NCBI GenBank assembly: GCA_027596945.1
Contig: JADGJH010000608.1
Location: 1-16,124, forward strand
Source of the DNA: Physocladia obscura
Taxonomy: Eukaryota; Chytridiomycota; Chytridiomycetes; Chytridiales; Chytriomycetaceae
Length of the DNA: 16,124 nucleotides
Direction: 5' to 3'
This document shows positions 1,574-16,124 of this stretch, in pieces. The notes beneath the pieces are model-generated. The model saw only the letters and a list, made by a program, of their open reading frames with translations. It did no database searches and had not been told where the DNA came from. The translations under genes were made by a program, and so were the position numbers. Numbering within the stretch: the first letter of the stretch is position 1; each line of letters begins with the position of its first letter.

Positions 1574-2654
1574 TTGAACACCAGCAATTTGAAAGAGCCA
1601 CAAGATACATCATGGCATGCATTGTATGCTTCAAGTCAATTTGCTGAAGGGATAAATGGATTTATCCATCAAACAGGATTTGACAAACCAACATTTGATG
1701 CCATTCTCAAAGAATTCAGCAAAGACGTCATTGTTCAATCTGGACCTGGATTGCGCAGTTGCCCTCCTAAATTATCAAGGAAGTCAACAGTGCTGGGTTT
1801 ACTACTGCAATTTTATACAGGTATTTTTTGACTTTATTTGATATCTGATCTTATCTCAATTCATGCACTGGCAAATACAGTGAGCTTTGTCAGCTCTTTG
1901 GAATTCCTCCCAGCACTTTGGGAGATACTCTTCATAAGGCAGAGAAAGCCCTCTCAACTGCTTTGGATCAAATCAAAGATGCGCAAGTGCAATGGCCATC
2001 ACCAATGAATCACAAAAATTGGGCAACTGCTGTCAATCAAAAGAAGCCACTTGTCTGTAACCGTTGGGGATTCATTGATGGAAAGAACTATCCTGTGCAA
2101 GAGCCAACACATCAAGACATTCAGAATGCCTTCTACAATGGTTGGCTGCATACTGTCAGTGTAACTGGAGTTCTGTGCTATGGTGTCAATGGTACTATTA
2201 TTTGGGCATACCACAACTGTCCTGGGTCTTGGAATGCCAGGTAACCTCTCTTTTTTTGAAAGTACTGTTTTACACACATACCAGTTAAATATAGTGGCAA
2301 ATTTTGTGATTTTGGTGCAAGACTGATTAATCTGTGCTTTTCTCTGCAAGATTATGGAGTTGTTGTTGATTTGGCTTTTCCTGTTTCTAATGAAATGTCC
2401 AACAGGATTATAACTCCACTTAAAATTGGGGCTGTGGAACAATTTCCTTTGAACAAACTTCTGCTGAACTGGTTCACTCAGCAATTACTAGAGTCAGACA
2501 AGCTGCAGAATGGGGAATGGGGGCTGTAAAAAAGCCATTTTGGCGACTGACACAAAAGTTACCTTACAATCAAGACATTCGAGAGGTTTGGCTATGCAAT
2601 CTTTTTTACTTGTATAACTTGAGAGTGAGAAGACTGAAAATTAGGCAAATATGA
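1574..2654 (+). pseudogene. PIF/Harbinger-type DDE_4 transposase, broken
   Basis: The enzyme would cut and paste a PIF/Harbinger DNA transposon. Three exons are visible: 1574-1820, 1881-2240 and 2295-2654, separated by GT-AG introns of 60 and 54 bases. The family's catalytic core is recognisable: WGFIDGKNYPVQEP with the first Asp (about 2070-2110), VVVDLAFPVSNEM with the second Asp (about 2363-2400), and RQAAEWGMG with the Glu (about 2495-2520). The C-terminal LCNLFYLYNLRVR and a TGA stop follow. Two breaks are seen. Joining exons 1 and 2 leaves the frame one base out, and between about 2420 and 2465 the frame changes before the Glu block. No clear start methionine is seen. The D-D-E residues survive, but this copy cannot encode the whole enzyme as it stands. 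Confidence 0.85.
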
Positions 2655-5669: not shown

Positions 5670-5912
5670 ACATTGATTGTGCATATGGTTCTTGAGTCTC
5701 CAGAATGTGCACCAACTGTTCTTCTAGTACATCTTTTGTTCTTCTTCTGAGAGATGTGGGAAGGATTGTGTATTTGAGAGGTCCATCAGTTGTGGTCCAT
5801 TGCTGTGGTAATTGTAAAAATGTGGGTTGAAAATTTTTGTGAAGGAAAATTTTGTCTCATGCCGTTTTGCTGTGGAGTAGGCTTCCCATTTGTTCTTTGC
5901 CAATAAAGTCAT
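5670..5912 (-). pseudogene. Frame-shifted gag C-terminus with a damaged zinc knuckle
   Basis: The frame next to the main gag continues the protein: WEAYSTAKRHETKFSFTKIF, then LMDLSNTQSFPHLSEEEQKM, the usual gag linker before the nucleocapsid knuckle. After a TAG stop, the same frame gives a knuckle at 5711-5670 reading WCTFWRLKNHMHNQC. The pattern should be C-x2-C-x4-H-x4-C; the second Cys is Trp here and the other three ligands are in place. Thus gag is broken by a frameshift near 5870-5910, a stop near 5724 and a lost zinc ligand. Confidence 0.6.
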
Positions 5913-6651
5913 CTAGGTGTTTGGCTTTCATTTGAAGTTTATTTAGATCAACTTTGATGTTGAATAATTCATGCTTGTTGCAAAGGTGTGGCTTAAGACC
6001 CTGAAGGTACTTACTGCAAAGGTATCTGTCTTTGAAATTAATGCTTCCAAAGTGGATTACAGATAAGAGATTGTTGAATTCCTGTGAATGTAATGTTGCA
6101 GATCTTGTTTGTTTAAGAGAATCCATGCCTTCAACAGCTTGTGTTTGGGTTAATTGGGATCCAAAATTTGAACAAATCCAGGCTTGATAATTCTTCCAAG
6201 TCATGTTTCTACATTGATCTTCTGGTAGATGTCTCCAGCATGTACAAACATGTTCTGTGAGTCCTGTAGTAATCCAGGCTGCATAGCGCAGCTGTTGTTG
6301 GTGAGTTGGCTTGGCGCCATCTGCAAGAAATCCATATAGTTGGGCTTGTTCTTCACATCTAAGTAAGTAATTGTCAATGATGTTTTGAGTTTTGTGTGCT
6401 GGCTTGGTTTTAGTGTTGCCATTGAATTCTGGTGACCTTACTGAGGTGATTTTGAAAAATGGTAAGTTGCGTGTATTAGGAGGTATCACTGAAGAATTTT
6501 CTTGATAAACCCTATTTTGAAGTTCAGCTTGTAAGCTGTTGTTATTGATGCTAAGTCTTTGAACTGTTTTGCTGAGTTCCTGCATTTCTTGTAGAATAGC
6601 GGCTAGTTGTCTGGCTTGCAGATTTGAAGTGCTTGAGCCTGAGTAGTCCAT
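5857..6651 (-). CDS. Retrotransposon gag (capsid) protein, C-terminally cut
   Basis: This 264-residue reading frame starts at an ATG and opens with a short coiled-coil-like part (QEMQELSKTVQRLSINNNSL, residues about 20-40). The retrotransposon gag (capsid) fold follows, seen in blocks such as PEFNGN (about residue 75), YAAWITTGL (about 128), the W.NYQAWICSNFG block (about 155-165), and FNNLLSVIHFG with YLQGLKPHL (about 190-220). It packages element RNA into particles in known relatives. It ends at a TAG within the linker; the true C-terminus with the zinc knuckle follows in the neighbouring frame. The start fits a gag lying about 65 bases inside the primer binding site. Confidence 0.75.
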   Translation of the reverse strand: MDYSGSSTSNLQARQLAAILQEMQELSKTVQRLSINNNSLQAELQNRVYQENSSVIPPNTRNLPFFKITSVRSPEFNGNTKTKPAHKTQNIIDNYLLRCEEQAQLYGFLADGAKPTHQQQLRYAAWITTGLTEHVCTCWRHLPEDQCRNMTWKNYQAWICSNFGSQLTQTQAVEGMDSLKQTRSATLHSQEFNNLLSVIHFGSINFKDRYLCSKYLQGLKPHLCNKHELFNIKVDLNKLQMKAKHLDDFIGKEQMGSLLHSKTA

Positions 6652-6714
6652 TTGTCTGGAACAGCAAAGGTGCTTGGTCTTGACATTGATGAAGAGAGGC
6701 GTTTGTAGATTTTT

Positions 6715-6726
6715 CTGGTGCTACCA
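6715..6726 (-). other. Primer binding site of the LTR element
   Basis: On the minus strand TGGTAGCACCAG begins three bases after the LTR end. TGG is the complement of the CCA end of a tRNA, and the position directly inside the LTR is where a reverse-transcription primer site lies. The priming tRNA cannot be named from the sequence alone. Between here and gag there is only a short leader. Confidence 0.6.
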
Positions 6727-8298: not shown

Positions 8299-10369
8299 AT
8301 GCAGCTTCCCACGATCGGTGCAACACTTTTGGCTGGTTCAGTGGTATTTGCAGGCGATACGAAGCAAGGATGGAGAACTCTGCGTCAGTTAGTTGTGGCG
8401 GGCTTAAATGACACTGAAACATCAAGTGAATTCTTTGAATGTCAGAGGGCAGCACGAAGGCTTTCTGCGTGCACAATGCACTCTTGACCAACAACCGACT
8501 CATGTGTATTGAAAGGCCGCACACGGACCCAGTTGAGTGTTTCCCCTTACTAAAACTTAAGTGCTTACTAAGTAGTTGCTGCCAAAACATAAACAGTACT
8601 GGTATATCAACCCAGAGACAAACGGCCGCACTTCCGTCGTCATCAGCGTCGACTACGACGCAGGGGCCATCAACGCAACAGTGAATGCGCTCCAGTACAA
8701 CGCGTTCTGTGCGGGACACTCGCAGGGCGCCGACGGCCAGATTTGGGTGGTTGGTGGCGACTGGCAGTCGAGCTCCACCTTGACGGACTGGTCGCAGCAG
8801 ACGCCGGTGAACGGAACGGATGCGGGCACTTTCCTGTATCCGGGCATCGACCACATCCGCTCCTTCACTCCTGGAGAGGCTGCCGCTGGAACCTGAGACG
8901 AATCCGTTACAATGCCTACACCGACATGGTACCCAACTGTCCTGACCATGGGCAATGGTCAACTGTTTATTGCATCGGGAGATACTAGAAATATCGTCTT
9001 TTCGCCTGATGGTCTTGCCAATCTCATTAACCCAACCTATGAGTTTTATCCTCCAACATTGAAAGCAACTTGTTGGCGTGAGTGTGTCCTTCACGTAGGC
9101 GCTAACAGGAAGTTGAATGATGATGTATTTTAAACAGATGGTCTTTCCCCCATAACTTGTATCCTATGGGTAATCTCGAATTTTTCGTTGTGGAACAATG
9201 CAATTAACTTGATTCAAAAGTATTCCAATTGCCAGCAAGAAAAATTTTCATGATGGCATCCAATCGATCCAACTGTGGATCCAAGCGTAAACCTTACAGG
9301 CCATGTACAACCGTTGGCTAACGTTTATTTGCCTGGTCTTGATCATGCTCCTTGGATTTACCCACACACCCCAACCTCATTCCTCTTACCAATGTATGAG
9401 AAGACGGGTTATCTCGCAGAAGTTATGATTTGTGGAGGCAACAAAAACTCCATTTTTTACGCGTTAGCTGATTGTCTGTCTTTGCAACCCGAAGTGTCAG
9501 GGGCTGTTTGGACCCGACAACCTGATATGCCCAATGCTCGTTTGATGCCAGAAGCTACACTACTACCAGATGGAACTGTTTTGTTCACCAATGGTATGGG
9601 GTGGGGTCAAGCTGGTGGAAATGCTGGAGAAACCAACTACGCTGCGAATCCTGTATTCCCAACAGATTTATATAATCCAGTTACAAACAATTGGACCACA
9701 GTTGGACAGAGTACAATCATCCGATCATATCACAATGGTGCGATTCTTCTTGCTGATGGATCTGTTATTACAACTGGTAGTGAAATGGGAAACTACTTGG
9801 ACTTTTGGGGAACTTACTTCCCACAAAACTTGCCGGAAGCTGCTTTCTTTAATACTACGGGAGTCGCCAAGTCAAATTGCTTCCCGGACAACAGAAATAT
9901 CAATTGTACTTACCCTTACACTATGGCTATTGAACAGTTTACACCATCGTACTTGGTTTCTGGGCAGCGACCAGTTCTCGTTTCCCTTCCAGAAGGCACA
10001 AAGTTCACATACAATAGTACTATTGGGCTCCAGTTCGACTCAACTGGAGCACCTGTGACACGTATCACGTTCCTTCGTTACACGACAACCACTCATAGCA
10101 CAAATACCTATCAGCGCTTCATTGAGCCAATTTTACTCTTTGTCAACTCGACATACGCGGTTGTTAGAATCCCTCCAACAGGACATATTGCACCTCCTGG
10201 AAACTGGCACATTTTTGGTATTTCAGCTTCAGGTATTCCATCTATTTCTGTAACCGCTCTGTTTGGGACGGGAGACGCAACTTCAGTTCCAATTCCAGGA
10301 AAGAGCAGTTCTTTGCACGTTGGATTGGCTTTGGCTGTTATTATTGGGGCAGCTTTAGTGGTTTTTTAG
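8299..10369 (+). pseudogene. Glyoxal/galactose-oxidase-like copper radical oxidase, with two lesions
   Basis: Enzymes of this family oxidise aldehydes or alcohols to make H2O2 outside the cell. The exons I infer are 8299-8383, 8446-8531, 8597-9081, 9138-9169 and 9236-10369. The start is the ATG opening a signal peptide (MQLPTIGATLLAGSVVFAG). Family marks follow: the N-terminal block FCVHNALLTNNRLMCIERPH; NAFCAGHSQG with the Cys that crosslinks to Tyr; TWYPTVLTM with that Tyr; SYHNGA with the axial Tyr-His (9728-9733); and THSTNTYQR with the last His (10094-10096) in the DUF1929-type domain. A hydrophobic GPI-type tail ends the protein. Two lesions are seen: TGA at 8894-8896, 11 codons before WYPT where Trp would fit, and one extra base near 9271-9274 after KIFMMASNRS. 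Without these it would be about 606 residues, normal for the family. It could be a recent pseudogene, or the breaks could be sequence errors. Confidence 0.85.
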
Positions 10370-11473: not shown

Positions 11474-12736
11474 TCATTTCGCTGGTTGGTTCGAGAAAGT
11501 GCTTACTGCTGCGGCGTCTTCTTTCTCTTCGTCAGTTATGGGTTCTTTGTCAAGCTTCTCCAATAACTTGCAGCGATAAATAGTCTCAATTCGGTAGTTC
11601 GCCAACTTTGTAACAGGGTTGTCTTGGAATATAAATATTAACCTCTCCACACAAACTGCACCTATTGTTGTCTTACCAATCAAATTAAGGGCCTTCAAAT
11701 TGGGCAATTTTCCCAGACTCCAAATATCGTCAAGAGATTCCACAAGATTGTTTCTGTAACGTTGAGGAAAAATAAGAACTTAAAAGAAATCAAATAAAAA
11801 AATGCCATCTAAAATATCACCGAAGATTTACGTAAGTGAGCGATTTGAAGCTGTCATTGAAAGTGTCTAACGTCACAATTTTGTTATCACGCAAATGAAG
11901 AAATTGCAAGTTTGGTTTTTCTCCAAAATCAAGCGTTGTTATTTCGTTGCCGCCCTGTTTTGATTTTACATCAATTTTTGTGAAAAAACATGATTTCTCT
12001 TACAAGATATAGTTTTTCGAGTTTTTTAGCATTAATTCCTTTTGTTGTGAAGATTTTGTTCCCGCGAGCCTCCAAATGAATTAGTTCTTCAAATTCCTGT
12101 AATTTGATTTCCTTGAGTTTGTTTTCTGTGTATTTATATCAACATTAAATACATAAGTAAGAAAAAATGTTATATTGACATTATTTTACCATTCAGATTC
12201 AACCACGCCAGCATTGGCCAGTTGAACACTTCGATCAATTCGATTTCATTTTTTGCAAAATTTGCTTGTTGTAAATATTTTCGTCTTTCCAAACTAGCAG
12301 GAATTTTTTTGATTTTATTGGAATGAAAGTCCACAGAAAGGAGATATTCAAGAGAAGCAAGTGCAGAAATATTTGTGATCAAATTTTCGGATAGGTCCTA
12401 TTGTCATTGAAATCAATAATTATCCTTTTAAAAAAAACAACTATTTACAATATAACGTAAATGAACATAATTTTCCAAAATATCGATATTTGTTAAATTC
12501 TTTGATCGTATTTCTAGTCGCGTATATGCGTGACTTAAGCCATTTCCTGTGCGTGCAAGCAACGAAATATGTGGACCAATCATCTCGGCTGTTAATACTT
12601 CTGTATCAACAACGAGCTTTTCTTCATCATCTTCAACTTCTCCAGTTTTTTCTTCGTTTTGAATTTCATCTGAGTCTTCCAACTCTTCATTCCCCACTTC
12701 TTCGTGTGCCATAAATTCTCTGACAATTTTTAACAA
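11474..12736 (-). CDS. LRRC23: LRRC23-like leucine-rich repeat protein (radial spoke)
   Basis: LRRC23 is a radial-spoke-associated protein of motile cilia. The exons (minus) are 12736-12449, 12397-12190, 12125-12004, 11954-11821, 11753-11677 and 11622-11474; they total 978 bases in one frame, 325 residues plus TGA. This is close to the animal protein's roughly 340. An acidic N-terminus (residues about 10-48) is followed by the conserved RTGNGLSHAYTRLEIRSKNL. Leucine-rich repeats then run to about residue 275 (DLSENLITNISALASLEYLL, LHLRDNKIVTLD). The LRR cap reads DNPVTKLANYR and LLEKLDKEPIT, as in relatives. Two starts are possible: 12736, or the in-frame ATG at 12712 before AHEEVGNEE. The first lies 14 bases and the second 38 bases from the CFAP298 stop. 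The last intron (11676-11623) is 54 bases long without a stop, so its retention would keep the frame. Confidence 0.88.
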
Positions 12737-12750
12737 AAAAAATAAAGAAT

Positions 12751-13989
12751 TCAGCCTCTACTTGTTCTCGGACCCCATGAGACACTAGACGATCCATTAA
12801 GTGAATACTTCAAAGACTTTGTGTTTGCCCACGGCGCATTAAGATATTCATCATCATTGTTTTCCAGAAGTTTCTATTTTATTAATTAGATTATTTTGCC
12901 ACTGCACAATATTTCTTCTAACCTTATGCTCCTCTTGTTTTTTATAATAAAATGCCATCATTTCTCTTTGTGCTTGTTCATCCATAGGTGATTCACGAAC
13001 AGGTGCTCCTTGAGATTTCTAAAAAAATTGCAATTATTTTCAGTACATGATCTCTATCAATTTTTTTTTACCTTCTGTAGTTTGACAATAACTTTGCATT
13101 TATCATTCTTTCCCACGAAATCCGACAGATTTTTTCCGCGCATAATTTCCTTTCCAGCCCACCATAAGGTCGCATCGTCAAGAGAAATGACTTCTTTTGA
13201 TGCCTAATATTCATTTCCGCTGTTATTACACAGTAAATTTTAAAAGACGATACTCACAGCACTCCCCGACAGATCCTCGATATCTTTGATAATATCATCT
13301 GCAGGCTCTCCTTCAGACATACCCATTGGGTAAGCCATAGTCAATGCACCGGAAATGAGAGTGATTGCTTCTTGCATTAATTCTGTTGTCAAGAACTTTG
13401 ATGACATCCAAAACTCCTACCGAAACAAAAAAAGTTAGGTTGTATAAATATTCAAATAAAAAAAGAGAGAAAATGACAGTGATTCACTTTTTCTACAAGT
13501 TTTTTCGCGTTATCGGTGGTTGATTTGATTGCGTCAACATAGTTTGCAATTGGCGCTAATGGGAAATAAAACATCTTGTTCATTACATATATATAAATAT
13601 ATATCTACTCACCTTCTCCGTTACGTCGGCCAGTTGGATCTGGATTATAAACGTATTTGATACCGTTTTTTTCAAAAACTTGTCCGGCTTTGCTGTTTGT
13701 GGGTTTTGCCAACTCCTCACCACCTTTTATTTCTTCGAGTTCTTCAATTGAATATCCTTGGTCTTTTTCAGGTCTTAAAAGACCATATTGCGCGAGTTCG
13801 TTTGCAGCTGTTTTTTTTTTTCAATGAAAATTATGGTTATATTCATTGTTTACCATCAATTAGGCGACTCAGGCGCAACTTCATGTTGTGAATTTCAGTG
13901 ATCTTTTTGATTGTATCATCAACTGGCGAAAAAACAGGTAACTCCATCAAGAAAAGCGTTTCAGTGTTGCGTTTAACTGTCAAGATCAT
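12751..13989 (-). CDS. CFAP298: CFAP298 (C21orf59/Kurly), cilia dynein-arm assembly factor
   Basis: In animals CFAP298 is needed for dynein arm assembly and ciliary motility. Seven exons (minus) are 13989-13854, 13807-13613, 13555-13488, 13416-13258, 13203-13072, 13018-12923 and 12873-12751. They sum to 909 bases in one frame, 302 residues plus TGA, compared with 290 in human. The start MILTVKRNTETLFLMELP matches the family's N-terminal strand. Further marks are GRRNGEAP at an exon end, LISGALTMAYPMGM, the tryptophan block LWWAGKEIMRGKNLSDFVGK, SQGAPVRE, MAFYYKKQEEHKKL, NDDEYLNAPWAN and the end block SWGPR. Introns are 46-71 bases. It lies 66 bases after the TRAPPC4 stop and just before LRRC23 on the same strand, so it may share transcripts with its neighbours. 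Confidence 0.95.
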
Positions 13990-14055
13990 GAGCTTTGTTT
14001 TTCTTTTATTTGTCAAAAATTTCAGTTCAAACACATTGACATTCGCTCTTTCCAC

Positions 14056-14618
14056 CTATGAGTTAATTTGCTTCACAATCTTGTTCAAATTTAAATCAAA
14101 CAAGTCTGCTCGAATTGGCATCTCAGGTGTGTAAAACGGGTTCTTCATCACATAATCAGCATAAGTTTCGTAAATTTTTCGCATAATCGCATCCACATTT
14201 GACTGTAGCGGATCAGTTACAAGCAGAAATTTGGTTCCTGGAAGCGCCATAACAAGTAAATTAAAGCCAGAGCGCTGATAAAACTCTAACTGAACCAGGA
14301 TTAAACAAACCTGTTGGCGTTTGAATACAAAACATTTTAAAAAGATCTGCTTCAAGAACTTCGATCCCAGATGAACCAGGAACGGGGGAAAGTTTTGAAG
14401 TAATTACATGAATGCTAATGAGACACAGTGTTGGCAATGAATTTCAATTCACCGATTATTAGTTTTTTTGTGAACGTATGAAATGTGCCGGCAAACCTGT
14501 GGAAGGTTCCCGCGAGCACGAGATATTCATTGCTGGATAATGTCGCGATTCCATCCGTGTAATTCTTCAGGTAAATGAGACCGCCGGCTTTGTTGATGAT
14601 ATATAGGGAATGAAGCAT
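14056..14618 (-). CDS. TRAPPC4: TRAPP complex subunit 4 (Trs23), short fungal-type form
   Basis: TRAPPC4/Trs23 is a core subunit of the TRAPP tethering complex, which activates Rab1/Ypt1 in ER-Golgi traffic. The exons (minus) are 14618-14497, 14414-14311 and 14237-14056: 408 bases, 135 residues plus TAG. The longin-type N-terminus reads [17 protein letters not shown], then [15 protein letters not shown]. The middle has [20 protein letters not shown] and [14 protein letters not shown], and the C-terminal hallmark is [16 protein letters not shown]. The roughly 70-residue internal insertion of the animal protein is absent, as in short fungal Trs23. Both introns begin GTTTG (82 and 73 bases). The frame stays open 44 codons upstream of the chosen ATG, but that part is antisense to the next gene's first exon and has no family match. 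Confidence 0.95.
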
Positions 14619-14652
14619 TGCTTTGTTTTGCTGTTGAATTTTGCAGAAAAAG
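14619..14652. promoter_or_regulatory. 34-base bidirectional start region
   Basis: Only these 34 bases separate the start codon of TRAPPC4 (minus) from that of the TPGS1-like gene (plus). They contain no room for two separate promoters, so each gene's 5' leader or promoter must overlap the other gene or the transcripts overlap at their 5' ends. No TATA box is seen. Confidence 0.55.
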
Positions 14653-15577
14653 ATGACAAATCCTGGCAGTGTCACATCTGCGTCAAAAATCCTCAAAGAT
14701 ATCCTGTTGGATGTATTGGAAAATCGGCCCGATGATCCCATAAACTTCATCCGCGCTAGCCTAAAAGAGTAACTCCGTTTTGTGTTTAGTTACTCATGAG
14801 AGTTAAACAATTTTCTCAACAAACAGTTCCATCATATTTCAAGGAAATATCTTCGTTGTTCAAGCGTATAAACAAATAAGAAAATTTCATTGGACGACTA
14901 TCGACTATCGAGAGCGGCTAGCAATTGCCTTTGGGATGCTAAAGACTTTACGTATATTTTGAAACACTTTTTTGGATTATGTTTAATTTACTCAAAAATA
15001 CTTAGATGTGTCTGGTGAAATTAATGTTGGCATAGCACACTTCAAGGAATATTTACTGCTGTTTTTTAGGTGAATTTAGTGGTACTAATTCTTTATTAAT
15101 ATCAAATTTCAGTGACTATCCTCCCCTCCAAACAAATTTGATAGAATATGTCATTTCTTGGTTAGAATATGAAACTTCTGTTTCATTTGAAGTTTTTTCC
15201 ATGAGCACGTTTTTATTTTCCGTCATCTTAGGTAAACCTGTTGTGCTCCCCCACACACACAAACACACATTGTTTTAATGATGATATCCAATCAGAGTAT
15301 GTGATACAAGTAACTACAATGTATAAATCAAAAAATTACGACGGAATACTCTCTATTTCTTTGTTGAAGCAAATATTTCAACGAATTGCACGGATTGATG
15401 AAACAGTGATCGGAGACAGGTTTTAACTTTTATCTCCTTTTATGGTGCTCATAAATTGGTAGAAACAGCGAGCTTCGCAAATACTGGGCTCAAAAAATAT
15501 TTGAATTTCCGCTTCAGAGCCAAGTCTCTGAAGTTGAATTCTTTCAAATGATACACAGATGTTTTTTATTGGAATAA
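14653..15577 (+). CDS. TPGS1: TPGS1-like tubulin polyglutamylase complex subunit
   Basis: TPGS1 helps target the TTLL1 polyglutamylase, which adds glutamate chains to axonemal tubulin. Six exons are 14653-14768, 14827-14951, 15006-15069, 15113-15231, 15296-15419 and 15463-15577: 663 bases in one frame, 220 residues plus TAA. Five GT-AG introns of 43-64 bases join without a break. The start is supported by an in-frame TGA at 14635-14637. The N-terminal helix pair ILKDILLDVLENRPDDPINF (residues 13-32) matches the family's 'L..VLE.RP..P..FL' block. VSFEVFSMSTFLFSVIL (residues about 124-140) fits the later conserved helix. The rest is weakly conserved and shorter than human TPGS1 (about 290). Each exon is under 130 bases, so the gene is easy to miss. 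Another protein with the same RIIa-like N-terminus is possible. Confidence 0.6.
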
Positions 15578-15635
15578 ATCAACCAAAAATTTTGGATCAA
15601 CTCTACGGTCAAATGAATATTTGATAAGAAAGCGA
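15578..15635. terminator. Shared 3' region of convergent genes
   Basis: These 58 bases lie between the stop of the plus-strand TPGS1-like gene and the stop of minus-strand LZTFL1. The plus strand reads AATAAATC across the TPGS1 stop codon (GGAATAAATC, 15571-15580), so a polyadenylation signal overlaps the stop. The 3' ends of both transcripts probably overlap. Confidence 0.4.
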
Positions 15636-16124
15636 TCATGATGAAGGATTGTAATTGTACCTTTCCAAACGGCTTCGATAGTTTTTTATAAGTTCATTCT
15701 TTTGAACAAGCATTTTTTTAAGATTTTGTACTGGAATGGATTTGTCAATCCTGTCTTCCAAATCCTATTATCAATTTAAAAGAAATTTAAAAATATTTTT
15801 AGACTGTATCAAACCGTTTCTAAAAGTTGTATTTTTTCCATAAGATTACTGATGACTTTCTGATGAAAACAAAAATAAAAAAATTGAAGTTGACAAATAA
15901 TTAAAGAATCATCGATTTTTTACCTGCTCGTCATTATATTCCTTCTTTTGAGATATAGCCGTATTCTACATGGCATTTAATATTAAAGATAAAGATAAAT
16001 TTGAATATGTTACTTTAAATTGAAAAATTATCTATCAATTTTCAAACCATTTTTAAATCTTGCAAAGCTGTCTCCAAATCCTGAACTTTTTTTTTCAGGA
16101 ATTCTTGGGAATCCTGGAAAAAAA
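15636..16124 (-). CDS. LZTFL1: LZTFL1-like (BBS17) coiled-coil protein, 3' part
   Basis: LZTFL1 is a coiled-coil regulator of the BBSome, which sorts proteins into and out of cilia. Four 3' exons are seen (minus): 16113-16048, 15965-15924, 15859-15815 and 15764-15636, all joined in phase 0, giving 94 residues plus TGA; the gene continues beyond the window. The marks are QDLETALQDLK, matching the family's long coiled coil, and the C-terminal block VQNLKKMLVQKNELIKNYRSRLERY, which parallels the family's '..NMKEILTKKNDQIKDLRKRLAQY' end. Two of the three introns open with GTTTGA. Low complexity of coiled coils leaves some doubt, but the last exon is distinctive and ends at the right place. Confidence 0.78.

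Follow-up and report, generated by a model that had tools for sequence, protein, structure and literature searches.

Four genes with predicted roles in the flagellum lie side by side within 4.7 kb at the right end of contig JADGJH010000608.1, with the trafficking gene TRAPPC4 in their middle. Does such an arrangement reflect a cluster dedicated to the flagellum or merely crowding of genes? The window analysed here is this entire contig of 16,124 bases (C578), part of a draft genome of 21.76 Mb in 1222 contigs. From left to right the genes are LRRC23 (minus strand), CFAP298 (minus), TRAPPC4 (minus), a TPGS1-like gene (plus) and an LZTFL1-like gene (minus), so their orientation is mixed. The coding gaps between them are, in the same order, 38, 66, 34 and 58 base pairs (bp). 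The original prediction had left the choice between a co-regulated zoospore cluster and simple compaction. Compaction is favored here because equally short gaps were found at two further loci, one of 36 bp beside a non-flagellar gene and one of 44 bp beside a WD40 gene, and the mixed orientation of the five genes fits it as well. We consider it probable that the arrangement reflects ordinary local gene compaction together with one inherited gene pair, and not a dedicated flagellar cluster.

Under this explanation the window would be a gene-dense nuclear stretch in which four flagellar genes became neighbors by chance, a few dozen bases apart. TRAPPC4 followed by CFAP298 on the same strand would be the single inherited adjacency. 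Each gene would keep its own short promoter, located partly inside its neighbor, and the co-occurrence of the four flagellar genes would be mostly a matter of chance.

The TRAPPC4-CFAP298 pair in a related chytrid

Among the best 120 of 215 CFAP298 homologs, the highest identity was found in Rhizoclosmatium globosum (73%), followed by Podochytrium (71%) and then by Entophlyctis, Siphonaria, Chytriomyces and Obelidium. All these genera belong to the Chytridiales. Judged by protein similarity, the genome belongs to a chytrid with Rhizoclosmatium and Chytriomyces among its relatives.

In Chytriomyces hyalinus a single gene model of 435 amino acids (aa), HDU78_010728, comprises a Sybindin domain as well as a CFAP298 domain. 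It showed 89% identity to the window over TRAPPC4 and 68% over CFAP298. The model keeps the last residues of TRAPPC4, continues with a linker of five residues (AFTHT) and then reaches the methionine of CFAP298. Since HDU78_010728 holds both parts, TRAPPC4 and CFAP298 are same-strand neighbors in C. hyalinus too, in the same order as in the window. The two genomes differ in that the C. hyalinus locus is annotated as one protein, whereas a TAG separates the two frames in the window. Because the pair recurs in C. hyalinus, its adjacency is best read as inherited. Of the two genes in the recurring pair, one is flagellar and the other serves trafficking.

The original prediction would have lost ground if gene order were conserved in no relative. 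The C. hyalinus locus refutes such a complete lack of conservation, but for this one adjacency only: TRAPPC4-CFAP298 was the sole conserved order observed, and it was observed in one relative, in a CFAP298 search that admitted proteins up to 1.75 times the query length, which a fusion with LRRC23 would have escaped.

The pair raises the possibility that TRAPPC4, CFAP298 and LRRC23 are transcribed together like an operon, or that TRAPPC4 and CFAP298 are bicistronic, with the first two perhaps being one protein in Chytriomyces. A trafficking gene would then be expressed jointly with two flagellar ones. The three genes are in tandem on the same strand with gaps of 66 and 38 bp, TRAPPC4 and CFAP298 share one reading frame with a single TAG between them, and the C. 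hyalinus model carries both domains joined by its short linker. Bicistronic transcripts are also described for budding yeast in PMC8573964. Read-through of the single TAG in the window would join both proteins, as in the C. hyalinus model. However, this model may be a merger made by gene prediction; our home-made gene finder fused TRAPPC4 with CFAP298 in the window as well. Short gaps are also no mark of all-flagellar units, since a gap of 36 bp parts a TPH-domain gene from a UBE2K-like gene elsewhere in the genome. Overall we regard an operon-like transcript as unlikely. Still less probable is the stronger version, a polycistronic unit of the Chytridiales that would tie a trafficking subunit to flagellar assembly, with a TRAPPC4-CFAP298 fusion in Chytriomyces made by read-through or by joining of exons.

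Spacing and scatter of flagellar genes in the genome

The short distances in the window are not special to it, as judged from two further loci read by hand, which do not establish a genome-wide frequency. The stop codon of the TPH-domain gene is 36 bp from the start codon of the UBE2K-like gene on the same strand, and an RSPH9-like gene and a WD40 gene are divergent with 44 bp between their assumed start codons. The names UBE2K and RSPH9 were given from Pfam matches (UQ_con plus UBA, and Radial_spoke, respectively). The TPH-domain and UBE2K-like genes represent another candidate bicistronic pair.

We also inspected the neighbors of flagellar genes at four loci, on one side each. None of the three neighbors that could be assigned is flagellar: a protein kinase lies next to RSP3, an NAD-glutamate dehydrogenase next to CFAP20, and the UBE2K-like gene next to the TPH-domain gene. 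The fourth neighbor, beside the RSPH9-like gene, is the WD40 gene, for which no assignment was obtained. Of the five genes at 11474-16124, four share a flagellar function, two of these by weak matches.

Profile searches located six of seven further flagellar Pfam families in the genome, on 12 contigs besides that of the window (Table 1). No contig carries two of the six families and no listed match lies on the window contig, although the power of this comparison is limited by short contigs and by the scoring of the best candidates alone. The seventh family, IFT57, gave no match in the genome at an expectation value (E) of 0.01 or below; 5 of 14 control genomes showed matches under the cut-off.

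Several results weigh against compaction and chance as the explanation. We calculated how many runs of five genes with at least four flagellar members would be expected if the genome had 6,000-10,000 genes, 3-6% of them flagellar, both values being assumptions. The expectation, which enters the case for chance as well, was 0.024-0.62 per genome, that is, less than one run, and it dropped to 0.0001-0.0078 when TRAPPC4 was counted as flagellar too. The close TRAPPC4-CFAP298 spacing in Chytriomyces may signal constraint. At two of the inspected loci the distances were wider: RSP3 and the protein kinase are divergent and 204 bp apart, and CFAP20 is separated from the NAD-glutamate dehydrogenase by at most about 0.4 kb, with the last CFAP20 exon left unmodelled. 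The gene finder, applied to 20 stretches of 10 kb with 25 gene pairs, returned minimum gaps of 220 bp for 17 tandem pairs, 92 bp for 5 convergent pairs and 1658 bp for 3 divergent pairs. Such close spacing may thus be atypical of the genome. Little weight is given to the gene finder, a hidden Markov model too insensitive to define the usual gap length: it missed LRRC23 and TPGS1 and merges close genes, so that it is biased to large gaps.

A fungal flagellar atlas (PMC13358043) gives 547 flagellar genes for R. globosum and places TRAPP, radial spokes and dynein arms in the minimal flagellum set of fungi. Because TRAPP is part of that set, TRAPPC4 may not be foreign to the flagellar genes around it. 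A run of four in five is uncommon, yet it provides weak evidence for a special cluster, because it was singled out once the sequence had been read.

Upstream sequences and possible co-regulation

The genes could also form a co-regulated zoospore neighborhood with separate transcripts, kept together by shared or overlapping promoters that are active in ciliation. According to PMC13358043, flagellum-specific genes rise during ciliogenesis of R. globosum. In the window, the divergent TRAPPC4 and TPGS1-like genes have 34 bp between their start codons. Furthermore, the word TTGTCAG occurs within 200 bp upstream of four of eight flagellar genes, compared to 3.2% of 1500 random stretches. It is found on the sense strand in all four cases, at -14 for LRRC23, -27 for a DRC-like gene, -68 for CFAP20 and -170 for an RSP4/6-like gene.

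The p value of 6.6e-5 for this enrichment rose to about 0.08 once the 1184 words tested were corrected for. For the 8-letter form ATTGTCAG, present at three of the eight genes, the value was about 0.005 after correction for 1384 words; the genes behind it were not a held-out set. Four dynein heavy-chain 5' regions were fetched, one of which had a clear start codon, and the approximately 140 bp before it contained no TTGTCAG on either strand. An RFX X-box was absent from the eight flagellar upstream regions and from the window. There was also no indication of pairing among the other flagellar genes that were located. As a candidate flagellar promoter word, TTGTCAG is suggestive but not convincing, and we consider a co-regulated neighborhood to be unlikely as well.

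Gene models, identities and known systems

Gene models were built by translating both strands of the right end of the window and splicing out GT-AG introns, which measure 43-82 bp. The exons of the LZTFL1-like gene were read by eye, and the joined frame was then checked to be open to the stop codon. Four complete genes and one that is cut by the contig end result (Table 1), all inside 11474-16124.

Table 1. Features of the window and locations of further flagellar families in the genome
Feature	Position or contig	Strand	Details
LRRC23 gene	11474..12712	-	5 exons (12449-12712, 12190-12397, 12004-12125, 11821-11954, 11474-11753), 335 aa
Gap, CFAP298 stop to LRRC23 ATG	12713..12750		38 bp; TTGTCAG at -14
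CFAP298 (C21orf59/kurly) gene	12751..13989	-	7 exons, 302 aa
Gap, TRAPPC4 stop (TAG) to CFAP298 ATG	13990..14055		66 bp, same frame, 22 open codons past TAG
TRAPPC4 (Sybindin) gene	14056..14618	-	3 exons, 135 aa
ATG-to-ATG gap, divergent TRAPPC4 / TPGS1-like	14619..14652		34 bp
TPGS1-like gene	14653..15577	+	6 exons, 220 aa
Tail-to-tail gap, TPGS1-like / LZTFL1-like stop codons	15578..15635		58 bp
LZTFL1-like gene, last 4 exons	15636..16124	-	15636-15764, 15815-15859, 15924-15965, 16048-16124 (open at contig end); C-terminal coiled coil
Galactose/glyoxal-oxidase-like gene	9254-10369	+	GO-like_E_set 1.8e-13; non-flagellar; closest identified gene to the left of LRRC23
Open frame, part of Ty3-like element	5857-6720	-	Retrotrans_gag match, E 1.9e-5
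Transposase piece	1849-2244	+	DDE_Tnp_4 match, E 2.5e-5, just under cut-off
TPH	C1021		profile search of genome
RSP3	C245		profile search of genome
CFAP20	C65		profile search of genome
NYD-SP28 (DRC)	C593		profile search of genome
Radial-spoke head	C368, C327, C19		profile search of genome; C19 weak (2.5e-5)
Dynein heavy-chain N-terminus	C690, C376, C181, C151, C50		profile search; one or more may be cytoplasmic dynein

Four cilium genes and TRAPPC4 had been predicted within this 4.7 kb. All five could be located there and three of the identities are firm, while TPGS1 and LZTFL1 stayed under the curated family cut-offs, so that the prediction is confirmed in part. By their profile matches, the identities of CFAP298 (PF11069 at 1.1e-38 in Pfam) and TRAPPC4 (PF04099 Sybindin at 5.7e-48 in Pfam, and a TRAPPC4 chain in PDB at 6.5e-40) are certain. 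That of LRRC23 is nearly certain: the protein matched leucine-rich-repeat families in Pfam, and its two best PDB matches were LRRC23 chains (2.6e-48 and 3.1e-46), with a different leucine-rich-repeat protein next in rank at 1.4e-22.

The gene at 14653-15577 is called only TPGS1-like, a weak assignment, because its match to TPGS1_C (PF24480) falls under the curated cut-off and yet was the sole Pfam family reported for the protein at E up to 1. The match covers residues 50-153 with an E of 0.047 and 13.7 bits (cut-off 27); with a shortened model the E was 0.03. As TPGS1 had been named from the sequence before any search, the chance for this single family is about 2e-6 (0.047 / 24,736 models), with the caveat that splice sites were chosen in expectation of TPGS1. 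In addition, 23 N-terminal residues aligned to human TPGS1, and none of 500 shuffles was as good. In a protein search the model yielded no hit among 130 candidates at E of 0.01 or below, and the five PDB chains matched included no TPGS1 (best E 0.011). The TPGS1_C profile found no match in the whole genome; control genomes gave none either, so this result is uninformative.

The LZTFL1-like identity is also weak. The Leu_zip family (PF15294, LZTFL1) matched with an E of 3e-5 and 24.1 bits, under the cut-off of 28.2. The alignment comprises the C-terminal end of the profile (198-274 of 275); the N-terminal exons lie past the contig end. Alignment to human LZTFL1 scored 94; the mean of 500 shuffles was 45 and none of them scored as high. 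For both genes the human sequences in this comparison were not database records, and the test was not clean, since for one of eight off-target comparisons (TRAPPC4 against LZTFL1) no more than 3 of 500 shuffles did better. Searching the C-terminal part against proteins gave no hit among 139 candidates at E of 0.1 or below. Leu_zip had no match in the genome at E of 0.001 or below and three at E of 10 or below, of which the LZTFL1-like locus was first (0.0026, versus 0.0034 on C887). This ranking adds little, because the two are 0.6 bits apart and 4 of 14 control genomes were also matched at the loose threshold. Homology searches did not reassign TPGS1 or LZTFL1, though both remained under the family cut-offs.

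An assembly artefact or a haplotype duplication could have joined the genes, as the draft is fragmented into 1222 contigs and this one ends within the LZTFL1-like gene. Against this, all nine genome matches listed for HDU78_010728 are on the window contig, and four genes are complete with open spliced frames. For the TRAPPC4-CFAP298 junction, its recurrence in C. hyalinus largely refutes an artefact. We consider this explanation very improbable.

Among the papers listed by a literature search, judged by titles and the starts of abstracts, none dealt with flagellar gene clusters of chytrids, and the main text of the atlas (PMC13358043) mentions neither synteny nor gene order, nor LRRC23, CFAP298, TPGS1, LZTFL1 or TRAPPC4. 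If the tandem trio were not one transcript, as in the favored reading of compaction plus one inherited pair, the window would illustrate that four related genes in a run can arise by chance among several hundred flagellar genes. If it were, flagellar genes of a fungus would here be organized as an operon-like unit. The operon-like bicistronic transcripts of budding yeast, as described in PMC8573964, resemble the window in that close neighbors in a fungus are involved; they were demonstrated as transcripts, whereas in the window the resemblance is one of spacing.

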